DNA of 48,043 nt from an uncultured Caulobacterales bacterium (lineage in GTDB: Bacteria; Pseudomonadota; Alphaproteobacteria; Caulobacterales; Maricaulaceae). The position numbers were made by a program, and so were the translations under genes. The notes below the pieces were generated by a model, which did not search any database, was not told the origin of the DNA, and worked only from the letters and a program-made list of their open reading frames with translations. Shown piece after piece: positions 45,671 to 47,970 of the stretch. Position 1 is the stretch's first letter. Each line of letters starts with the position of its first letter. Where the stretch lies: positions 1 through 48,043 of the forward strand of contig CALDTL010000009.1 in the NCBI GenBank assembly GCA_937923965.1. The letters run 5' to 3'.

Positions 45671-45723
45671 CCGAAACGGCCATACCGTTTCGGCTTCCCT
45701 GGCGAATGATTGACAATCATTCG
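45671..45723. terminator. Two hairpins between convergent sodC and DUF2330 genes
   Basis: CCGAAACGG-CCATA-CCGTTTCGG (45671-45693) and CGAATGATTG-A-CAATCATTCG (45703-45723) are perfect inverted repeats; the second overlaps the DUF2330 stop codon. Neither has a T run, so their role as bidirectional terminators is tentative. Confidence 0.45.
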
Positions 45724-47117
45724 GTATCGTCGCCCCAAAGGTCCTTCCACCAGGTTGGGCCATTGTCATCATCTTCGCCTTTAATCTCAAATTTGACGCC
45801 TTTACCGGCCGCTTCAATATCGTCCCAAATCTTTGAGCGGTCCCATCCTGTGAGGTTGGCTAAGGTTTTGACTTCCTTCTCTTTCCGCTCATTGACCATT
45901 TTCTTATAGTCTGCGGCGGCCTCGCATTTCATCTCGCCCTCAAAGGCATGGCGCAGCACATAACGACCTTGGAAGTTCTGTTTATTCCCTGTTGTCTTGA
46001 ATTTCAGGTCCTCTGGGAAGCTTTTCGCGTCATAACGCACATGCAGCCGCGTGACGAAGACGTCTTGCGCTTGCGGCATAACAGGGCGGCGGCGCGGCAT
46101 GGGCTTTTGACTGCCGTTATCCCGAAGCCAGAATACGCCCAATTCCTGTAACTGCTCACGGCTGAGCGGGTCCGCAGCACAAGGATCGCACCATCCCATA
46201 TCCCACGCATATTCCATAAAGACGCCGTGGCCGCCCTCGCCTTTAGCCGCCGTCTTATACATACTCTTATAAAACTCCGGAAATTCGTCTTTGATATAGA
46301 CGGGCAGCTCTTGCCCTGACGGGATTTTCTGCGTGCGGTAATTCGTGGTCTCCACCTGCCCCTCGCGAGTTAGCGCATAGACAAAGAGATCTTGATCGCC
46401 TCGCGCATTCAATGTGCCAAGGCGGATAGGGAGCATGAATTTCGGAGACTCAAAGGCGACGGCGATGGGGCGCAGAAATTCATTCCCGGTCTTGGATTGC
46501 TCTTCCAAATTCACCTTCGCGACGAAGAATTTCATATCTTGCTTGATATAGCTGCCCAGCGTTTTCTTGGCCTTTTTAGGAACGCGGTAGCCATTGGTCT
46601 CGAGCCAAGTTTGCAGGCCGTCGCTTTCTTTGGCAGAGAGGATGAGAATATCATACTCGCCAACCGAGAAACTTTCTTCGATTGTGACGCCTAGAGACTC
46701 AGCTTGCTTATTAGCTGTCACAATAATTTCGTCAGCAACTGCGCCACGTTGCATCATAGGAGCGTAAACTCTTTGCCGCATACAAGGGTTATCATCGAAA
46801 TATTCCACCAACCTTGGCGCGGTATAGGCATCCAGATGATCGAGCAATCCCGCGTCTGAAATATGCACTTGCGCTTTTGTAATCACTGTGGGCACGGGAA
46901 TGACCATGGCAAATTCTGTCGGATCGCCAATATAATCATTGGCCATTGTTATAACCGTGCGGTCGCCATCACGCACCAAAGCCACTTTAGAACTTTGATT
47001 GAATAAATCCGTATCGGCTTTGGCGACATAGAAACCGCAAAAGGCAGAGGCGGATGGCGCGGCCGTAAGCGCGGCTATAGCGGCGGCGCTACTCAGCAGG
47101 TATTTGAATGGTTTCAT
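45717..47117 (-). CDS. DUF2330 exported protein
   Basis: A 466-residue member of the DUF2330 family, function unknown. Signal peptide 1-~25 (SASA-F), then the family opening CGFYVAKADTDLFNQSS, immediately after the cleavage site, and the motifs VALVRDGDRTVITMANDY, EFAMVIPVPTVI and a Cys pair in GWCDPCAADPLS. ATG 47117 follows AAAGGAG at good spacing; an in-frame start at 47198 is inside the upstream gene and unlikely. The product should be periplasmic or outer-membrane associated. Its start overlaps the end of the RnfD-like gene by 29 bases, which implies translational coupling and a shared function. Confidence 0.93.
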   Translation of the reverse strand: MKPFKYLLSSAAAIAALTAAPSASAFCGFYVAKADTDLFNQSSKVALVRDGDRTVITMANDYIGDPTEFAMVIPVPTVITKAQVHISDAGLLDHLDAYTAPRLVEYFDDNPCMRQRVYAPMMQRGAVADEIIVTANKQAESLGVTIEESFSVGEYDILILSAKESDGLQTWLETNGYRVPKKAKKTLGSYIKQDMKFFVAKVNLEEQSKTGNEFLRPIAVAFESPKFMLPIRLGTLNARGDQDLFVYALTREGQVETTNYRTQKIPSGQELPVYIKDEFPEFYKSMYKTAAKGEGGHGVFMEYAWDMGWCDPCAADPLSREQLQELGVFWLRDNGSQKPMPRRRPVMPQAQDVFVTRLHVRYDAKSFPEDLKFKTTGNKQNFQGRYVLRHAFEGEMKCEAAADYKKMVNERKEKEVKTLANLTGWDRSKIWDDIEAAGKGVKFEIKGEDDDNGPTWWKDLWGDDTE

Positions 47118-47970
47118 GAGAAACTCCTTTGGGTGAAAGCGAGAATTTGGGCCAATGATAGCGGCCCGCGGGAATAAGTCTGTCGATGAGCGGTACAATG
47201 GGCGCGGTTAGGATAAGCGCGAGGATGATGCCGGCTGCGTTATAAAAGGCGAATTGAATGGTAAAACCAAGCGCAGCAACCATCATGGCGTAAAGCACAC
47301 GCCCTAGCCTCGCATCCGGCGTGGTTTTCGGATCAGAAATCATAAAGAACGCAAAGATAAGCAGGGCCCCGCTTTGCAATTGATGCACGGGTATTGTCAG
47401 GGGATCACCCAGCCAGAGAGCCCGCCCAAATATCAAAGCGGCATAGCTCGCGAGTAAGGTTAGGCTGACATCCCAGCGTTTGGCTTTGCCCGTCACAATG
47501 CCGCCCATACCGAGCAGGAAGACGGCAAATATCGGCGCTGTCCCCCACTGCCCCGGTGAGATCCACGCGCCCGTAAAGAGCAGCGATAAGATGACGAGGC
47601 CAAAATTGGCGGGATTAAAAATATGCTTCCCGCGCCAACGCAGAATATATTTGGAGCTAATGGCCAAGATTCCTGCGGCAATAGACAGCGTTACAGAGCC
47701 TGTCCGCAATAAAAGCGTGAGCGATAGCGCAGAAATCAACGGGCTACGCGCATCAAAGCTTCGGCCTATAATCTTATCCGCGATTGCTTGCGTGCCAACC
47801 GTTGAGCCCACACAGGCCACAACATGCCACCACGGCAGTTGAAAGGCGAAATGAAATGTCCCGAGCAGGATGAGCGAAGAGAGAACAATAATTTGATAGT
47901 GGCGCGGGTCAGCCAAGAGCGCACGCAAAAGAGCGCCTCTATGCTGCATATATTGGGAAACTCCCGCCAT
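47089..47970 (-). CDS. Stand-alone RnfD/NqrB-like membrane protein
   Basis: A 293-residue protein with about eight or nine transmembrane segments, similar to RnfD/NqrB, the flavin-carrying membrane subunits of the Rnf and Na+-NQR complexes. Recognisable parts include ARSPLISALSLTLLLRTG, KHIFNPANFGLVIL and FMISDPKTTPDARLGR, the last two typical of the family. I do not find the SGAT motif whose Thr carries covalent FMN in RnfD/NqrB, and no other rnf/nqr gene is near. It overlaps DUF2330 by 29 bases. The start at 47970 has AAGGTGAAGG in front; an ATG at 47949 is possible. Upstream, to the window end, I see nothing callable. Confidence 0.88.
   Translation of the reverse strand: MAGVSQYMQHRGALLRALLADPRHYQIIVLSSLILLGTFHFAFQLPWWHVVACVGSTVGTQAIADKIIGRSFDARSPLISALSLTLLLRTGSVTLSIAAGILAISSKYILRWRGKHIFNPANFGLVILSLLFTGAWISPGQWGTAPIFAVFLLGMGGIVTGKAKRWDVSLTLLASYAALIFGRALWLGDPLTIPVHQLQSGALLIFAFFMISDPKTTPDARLGRVLYAMMVAALGFTIQFAFYNAAGIILALILTAPIVPLIDRLIPAGRYHWPKFSLSPKGVSHETIQIPAE

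Follow-up and report, generated by a model that had tools for sequence, protein, structure and literature searches.

A recurrent bacterial gene pair encoding an RnfD-like membrane protein that lacks the covalent-flavin linker and an exported DUF2330 protein with a predicted P35 fold

We analyzed a window of 48,043 bases, the whole of contig CALDTL010000009.1 from an uncultured Caulobacterales bacterium of the family Maricaulaceae (assembly GCA_937923965.1), and identified in it two overlapping genes on the minus strand. One encodes a membrane protein of the RnfD/NqrB family (PF03116), and the other encodes an exported protein of the family DUF2330 (PF10092). That these two genes form a recurrent, widespread module is well supported. 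With regard to function, we tentatively propose, at a probability of roughly 0.4, that the products form a two-subunit inner-membrane complex passing electrons between riboflavin and the thiols of DUF2330.

The RnfD-like gene (47089 to 47970, minus strand) has an ATG start and encodes 293 amino acids. A Pfam scan matched the protein to PF03116 at 63 bits (cut-off, 27.7), and it scored 45.6 bits against the NCBIfam model rnfD, far under the cut-off of 207.05. The DUF2330 gene (45717 to 47117, minus strand; 466 amino acids) matched PF10092 at 280.3 bits (cut-off, 24.7). A 29-base overlap between the two genes, reported in a preliminary description of this DNA, was confirmed at positions 47089 to 47117, and overlapping starts recur in relatives. 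The interval of 47089 to 47970 given there for the pair takes in the RnfD-like gene only. The DUF2330 frame also is open from an earlier TTG at 47198. However, the ATG at 47117 is likelier to be the start, because it is accompanied by a ribosome-binding-like site (AAGGAG, 47124 to 47129, inside the RnfD-like gene) and a likely signal peptide (residues 1 to 25, 47043 to 47117), for which the sequence and alignment suggest cleavage after ASA.

Among 137 genomes of the family, the source genome included, DUF2330 was found in 32 and PF03116 in 32 (E value of 0.001 or better), with both in 29. The two genes were neighbors on a single contig in 28 of the 32 DUF2330 genomes, a count that leaves out two genomes with DUF2330 fragments only (G048 and G041), a split pair with both genes at contig ends (G111), and a partial RnfD-like gene at a contig start beside DUF2330 (G054). 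Weak PF03116 matches below the cut-off, unaccompanied by DUF2330, were seen in G070, G071, and G075. In a sample of 385 genomes of the class, DUF2330 occurred in 12 and PF03116 in 26; four genomes had both families, and the genes were adjacent every time. Variant arrangements in this sample were three tandem DUF2330 copies in one genome (G284) and a reversed gene order in another (G322). In a sample of 269 genomes of the phylum, PF03116 was found in 169 and DUF2330 in the source genome only, and this sample therefore is uninformative on pairing.

A profile (A2) of 12 RnfD-like proteins was then run against 84,980 species genomes. Eleven of the 12 profile members have DUF2330 neighbors, and the query leans toward DUF2330-paired forms; the counts refer to the best 80 of at least 550 confirmed relatives and are silent on more distant RnfD-like proteins. 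DUF2330 was adjacent in 79 of these 80 (78 downstream and 1 upstream), and in the remaining relative (L132) the RnfD-like match is followed directly by the end of the contig. The 79 paired loci span about nine phylum-level groups and include Alpha- and Gammaproteobacteria, 'Deltaproteobacteria', Nitrospira, Acidobacteria, Rokubacteria, Verrucomicrobia, Leptospirales, Hydrogenedentes, and Anaerolineae. Many of the genomes are metagenome bins; the named strains are Nitrospira moscoviensis, Robiginitomaculum antarcticum, and Algimonas arctica. Clustering of open reading frames (ORFs) and a Pfam scan found no third gene that recurs across phyla around the 80 loci. Three ORF clusters were present in 68 to 80 loci, and these were the pair itself and antisense ORFs almost wholly over it. 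The next clusters reached at most 18 loci, gammaproteobacterial except for one titled only 'Proteobacteria', and included a likely sigma/anti-sigma pair (judged by eye from ORF starts). They look like lineage synteny, and the neighboring genes were set aside as evidence on function. When 100 of the 128 listed neighbor ORFs were scanned against Pfam, no family turned up in more than 3 members; the 28 ORFs omitted by hand were mostly repeats of the gammaproteobacterial synteny.

The spacing of the two genes was measured at the 79 loci with start codons picked by script. The genes overlap by more than 4 bases in 24 loci, by exactly 4 in 23, and by 1 base in 8; a gap of 0 to 50 bases separates them in 11 and a gap of more than 50 in 4, one is reversed, and in 8 the two coding regions lie in one open frame. 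Of the 79 loci, 71 have a ribosome-binding-like core no more than 22 bases ahead of the DUF2330 start that was picked, a raw count not set against chance. The one-frame loci (five from Nitrospira, two from 'Deltaproteobacteria', and one from an acidobacterium) comprise 708 to 759 codons and may yield one precursor, two proteins, or both. At two loci, L090:6576-10312 (of the same class) and L175:4383-8346 (an Anaerolineae bin), three tandem DUF2330 copies follow one RnfD-like gene.

The one-frame protein of N. moscoviensis was modeled as a joined chain from 76 sequences, of which 8 were joined and the rest were single halves (their placement was checked). The model had a predicted local distance difference test score (pLDDT) of 81.4 and a predicted template modeling score (pTM) of 0.79 over 742 residues, a pTM that, we reasoned, would be hard to reach with randomly placed halves. 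These observations bear on whether the proteins act together at all. The genes could be co-expressed and joined by translational coupling while their products, a flavoprotein in the membrane and an envelope protein unrelated to it, act separately, and it fits this explanation that elsewhere in the class DUF2330 is often found in genomes with no PF03116 gene and that no interface was observed. The persistence of the pairing in about nine phylum-level groups, where no further neighbor is shared, the eight one-frame loci, and the pTM of the joined chain all argue against it, and we regard separate action as improbable, the least likely of the explanations considered here.

The preliminary description had noted that the SGAT flavinylation motif is absent from the RnfD-like protein. 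This was borne out: [ST]GA occurs just twice, at residues 133 and 200, in neither case followed by Thr or Ser, and the Thr that bears covalent flavin mononucleotide (FMN) in SGAT-type motifs is without a counterpart. The linker is lost as well. In RnfD, a five-helix linker carries FMN on Thr153, and the riboflavin-site residues named in the same source are Asn124 and Asp248 (PMC9588780); the riboflavin contacts listed for NqrB are Thr162, Gly198, Asn200, Asn203, Ala205, Phe342, and Asp346 (PMC10643135). By alignment, in which the N-terminal part of NqrB was placed by motif matching by eye, Asn119 of the RnfD-like protein corresponds to NqrB Asn203 and RnfD Asn124, Asp213 to NqrB Asp346 and RnfD Asp248, Phe209 to NqrB Phe342, and Ser80 to NqrB Thr162. 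Asn119 lies in HIFNPAN (residues 116 to 122, 47605 to 47625, minus strand), and Asp213 lies in FFMISDPKTTP (residues 208 to 218, 47317 to 47349, minus strand). Aligning RnfD-like proteins for invariant residues, as had been suggested for this protein, returned both Asn119 and Asp213 in 81 of 81 sequences, with Ser or Thr at position 80 in 81 of 81 and Phe209 in 80 of 81. The Asn and Asp are separated by 94 residues, compared with 124 in RnfD and 143 in NqrB, and the shortened part is the FMN-carrying five-helix linker. In its place, between the two halves of the protein, stands SPGQWG (residues 138 to 143, 47542 to 47559, minus strand), of which G140, Q141, W142, and G143 each are present in 81 of 81 sequences. 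As judged from these alignments, the RnfD-like protein is without the covalent-FMN linker and keeps the residues for a putative riboflavin site.

The RnfD/NqrB fold was judged on the modeled N. moscoviensis relative, not on the window protein. The membrane half of that model matched Azotobacter RnfD (8rbq_D) with a Z score of 23.8 (259 aligned residues, 4.9 Å), and a Foldseek search with the modeled relative gave an E value of 1.6e-7 to 9eri_D. The membrane half also matched urea transporters (Z score, 11.8) and an ammonia channel (Z score, 11.0), a resemblance that PMC9588780 notes for RnfD in its own account of that subunit. Together with the missing covalent FMN site, these matches would suit a channel or transporter for which DUF2330 serves as a periplasmic gate or binding protein, with no movement of electrons. 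We consider this unlikely, given that the riboflavin-site Asn and Asp are invariant and that RnfD/NqrB structures match far better, at Z scores of 20 to 24. Overall, the protein resembles the RnfD/NqrB subunits of Rnf and Nqr in its fold, in its NP and DP motifs, and in the riboflavin-site Asn and Asp, and it differs from them in lacking the five-helix FMN linker and SGAT.

The exported partner was examined in 74 full-length DUF2330 proteins. Cys27, Cys310, and Cys313 were invariant (74/74). Cys310 and Cys313 lie in WCDPC (residues 309 to 313, 46179 to 46193, minus strand), so the conserved pair pointed out previously in GWCDPC (residues 308 to 313) was upheld. The codon of Cys27 is at 47037 to 47039 (minus strand), and this residue would be the second of the mature protein if signal peptidase cuts after ASA. 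Two further cysteines, Cys112 and Cys398, were both present in 72 of 74 proteins and both absent in 2 and were never singly lost; the two exceptions (L141 and L156) are both verrucomicrobial and possibly reflect one event. Because they are lost only together, the sequences suggest a Cys112-Cys398 disulfide apart from the trio of thiols. Cys112 begins a variable loop (residues 112 to 142, 46692 to 46784, minus strand) of 26 to 35 residues in the family, in which the commonest residue accounts for 0.32 of rows on average, compared with 0.76 to 0.78 in the flanks.

An AlphaFold model of the DUF2330 protein from 50 sequences had a mean pLDDT of 83.4 and a pTM of 0.80, with residues 116 to 142 of the loop under 50. 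At the sequence level, a search against the PDB gave a single match at an E value of 0.64, and a profile of 50 DUF2330 proteins gave 0 matches at an E value of 10. Foldseek with this first model revealed no PDB match at an E value of 0.001 or better, and M1 aminopeptidases headed its list. When the Foldseek candidates were compared by VIA-align, four entries for baculovirus P35 came first (Z scores, 10.9 to 11.6), the best with 224 aligned residues at 5.2 Å, and the next unrelated row had a Z score of 7.9; the match covers residues 28 to 378 of the model. Against the BFVD viral models, Foldseek placed P49 first (E value, 1.8e-4) and P35 third (6.6e-3). The second BFVD row, A0A6N1NI77, is an uncharacterized protein of Tupanvirus soda lake with an E value (2.0e-4) about equal to that of P49. 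The DUF2330 half of the N. moscoviensis protein, a second model, matched P35 with a Z score of 10.4 (Foldseek E value, 0.026; probability, 0.97). The template modeling scores (TM-scores) of the P35 and P49 matches are low, at 0.16 to 0.37. DUF2330 thus is predicted to have the P35 (b.28) fold, and we put homology of the fold to that of P35 at about even odds on the strength of these models.

In P35, caspases are trapped through the N-terminal Cys2 together with a loop that is cleaved (PMC7863939 and PMC3375223). DUF2330 could likewise be a periplasmic protease trap, with loop 112-142 as bait and Cys27 locking the cleaved protease, and with the RnfD-like protein as an anchor or as the setter of the cysteine redox state. 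P35 or P49 was the best structural match in three comparisons; Cys27 is invariant at the second position of the predicted mature protein, like P35 Cys2 (PMC7863939); the loop is long and unconserved; and P35 also inhibits the bacterial protease gingipain-K, according to PMC3375223. Nevertheless, we consider a trap distinctly unlikely. No PDB chain was matched at the sequence level, the ten loops compared showed no conserved residue that might be a cleavage site, and P35 was not among the 50 best rows of the plain Foldseek search with the first model. Moreover, function does not follow from a common fold, and a trap would leave unexplained what the RnfD-like protein does. More doubtful still is an extended version. 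In it, DUF2330 would be an exported cellular representative of the P35 fold from which the baculovirus caspase inhibitors may have been derived; a riboflavin-binding partner, the RnfD-like protein, would hold it in place and tune its redox state, and Cys27 and the bait loop would trap a protease in the periplasm or outside the cell. Compared with baculovirus P35 and P49 (SCOP b.28.1; MEROPS I50), DUF2330 shares the predicted fold, a cysteine at the predicted mature N terminus, and a long exposed loop; it differs in having no detectable sequence similarity to them and in being an exported bacterial protein with the WCDPC pair and an extra C-terminal part.

The preliminary description had stated that the RnfD-like gene stands without any other rnf or nqr gene. 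In the source genome (assembly 91% complete) this was found to hold for the families searched: the RnfD-like protein is the one PF03116 match, and there was no match to PF02508 (RnfA/RnfE/NqrD/NqrE), FMN_bind, or ApbE, RnfB and RnfC being outside the search. The absence of PF02508 and FMN_bind distinguishes the pair from Rnf and Nqr complexes. No PF02508 was found in any of the 137 family genomes, and FMN_bind was present in 1 of 40 relatives. Independence from Rnf/Nqr thus was shown for this family. ApbE was present in 23 of the 137 family genomes and in 35 of the pair-bearing genomes elsewhere (the PF02508 and ApbE checks there took in 48 of the 80 loci), a distribution that gives no clear link either way, and dependence of the pair on ApbE was set aside as an explanation.

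The closest described kind of system is the two-subunit Nqr/Rnf-like complex (PMC8238504, eLife 2021; PMC11334425, mSystems 2024), and loss of the flavinylation site is reported for Nqr/Rnf-like subunits as well (PMC11334425). As described in these sources, such complexes resemble the present pair in having an RnfD-like domain without its own flavinylation site and one extracytosolic partner. They differ in that the membrane subunit bears a C-terminal, cytosolic NAD-binding domain (PF00175) and that the partner, of the FMN-bind type, is encoded in a cluster with ApbE. PF00175 was not found on the window protein, of which PF03116 is the sole Pfam match. An RnfD-like gene of this known type, together with ApbE and an FMN-binding protein, was seen on a Mesorhizobium plasmid.

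RnfD-like proteins also were found with other partners. RnfD-like genes stand beside genes for CRTAC1/VCBS-repeat proteins in Streptomyces enediyne-type clusters on plasmids, that of S. globisporus C-1027 included. These UnbU-UnbV type pairs are similar to ours in that an orphan RnfD-like protein adjoins a second protein; they differ in that the partner is of the FG-GAP type and a polyketide synthase adjoins the pair, whereas the known window neighbors are DUF2330, a superoxide dismutase gene, and gyrA. On a Metabacillus plasmid (L108:4396-5783), a redoxin gene overlaps an orphan RnfD-like gene by 4 bases. The redoxin has an AhpC-TSA match, a CQAC motif, and an N-terminal hydrophobic stretch. 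It resembles DUF2330 in this stretch, in the CxxC motif, and in the overlap of the genes and differs in being an AhpC-TSA/redoxin protein, in a single instance. These few examples suggest one RnfD-like membrane core with exchangeable partners. Several further arrangements were noted. On a Serratia proteamaculans plasmid (L192), RnfD-like and VCBS-repeat genes lie beside a gene for histidine N-alpha-methyltransferase and near a DUF1702 gene. A single 900-amino-acid protein (L104:5687-8389) comprises an RnfD-like domain, FG-GAP repeats, and an UnbV_ASPIC domain, and in L106, which like L104 belongs to the class of the source genome, the RnfD-like and FG-GAP/UnbV_ASPIC parts are neighboring genes. 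The RnfD-like protein at L103:5509-6351 has no SGAT string and, by eye, no recognized partner nearby.

Electron transfer is the most likely work of the DUF2330 pair, because neither the riboflavin-site residues nor the three thiols vary and because the partner of one RnfD-like relative is a redoxin. In the two-subunit complex that we propose, the RnfD-like protein would be a riboflavin-binding membrane core that has lost covalent FMN and needs no other Rnf/Nqr subunits. DUF2330, with its predicted P35 fold, would dock on the outer face of this core, where RnfG meets RnfD in Rnf. A riboflavin close to the inner face would exchange electrons with Cys27 and Cys310-x-x-Cys313 of DUF2330, the quinone pool may be a further electron partner by analogy with NqrB, and the DUF2330 cysteines would in turn act on a substrate in the periplasm or sense it. 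We infer the binding of riboflavin, the transfer of electrons, its direction, and the substrate alike.

Several observations weigh against this proposal. The NqrB riboflavin contact Asn200 is replaced by His116 in 81 of 81 RnfD-like proteins. No thioredoxin-like match to DUF2330 was found in the Pfam scan or in the structure rows listed, and the CRTAC1/VCBS and FG-GAP/UnbV_ASPIC partners of other orphans are not known thiol proteins. The single indication that DUF2330 may dock on the RnfD-like protein is the pTM of the joined model. In each of the eight one-frame ORFs, DUF2330 is still preceded by an ATG with a ribosome-binding-like site and by a signal peptide; because of these separate start signals the one-frame loci are only suggestive of a complex, and we dropped them as proof of one. 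Tabulation of neighbors, the check put forward in the preliminary description, favored the pairing among relatives of the RnfD-like protein (79 of 80) and in the DUF2330 genomes of the family (28 of 32) but not from the DUF2330 side in the class sample, where 8 of the 12 DUF2330 genomes have no PF03116 match. DUF2330 therefore can occur without an RnfD-like partner and does not always need one. Finally, PF02508 genes are present, at any distance from the pair, in 23 of the 48 pair-bearing genomes checked elsewhere. Independence from Rnf/Nqr consequently is limited to this family, and strict orphan status fails outside it.

Among PMC articles, a search for DUF2330 and for PF, pfam, IPR, and COG identifiers for it returned no paper, nothing was found on a bacterial P35 fold, and a whole-word search found none with any two of UnbU, UnbV, enediyne, and RnfD. 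P35 is listed as a virus-specific fold in Table 2 of PMC5671483, and PMC4411684 counts p35/p49 among genes that were traced to viruses because cellular homologues were lacking. A bacterial family with a predicted P35 fold makes the question of P35 origin directly testable. The RnfD/NqrB family, for its part, gains a widespread two-gene form in which the covalent-flavin linker has been shed and the outer partner is a different one. This pair stands next to the known Nqr/Rnf-like and UnbU-UnbV type pairs, which suggests that the family is a reusable transmembrane core.

In the window, a Cu/Zn superoxide dismutase gene (PF00080; 45036 to 45569, plus strand) converges on the DUF2330 gene, and in several relatives lipoprotein-like genes stand at about the corresponding position, as read by eye from ORF lists. 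The upstream side of 47970 runs off the contig. A further neighbor in the window is gyrA, recognized by eye, and in five long contigs of the family a gyrA gene, again recognized by eye, follows the pair at a distance of no more than 2.5 kb.

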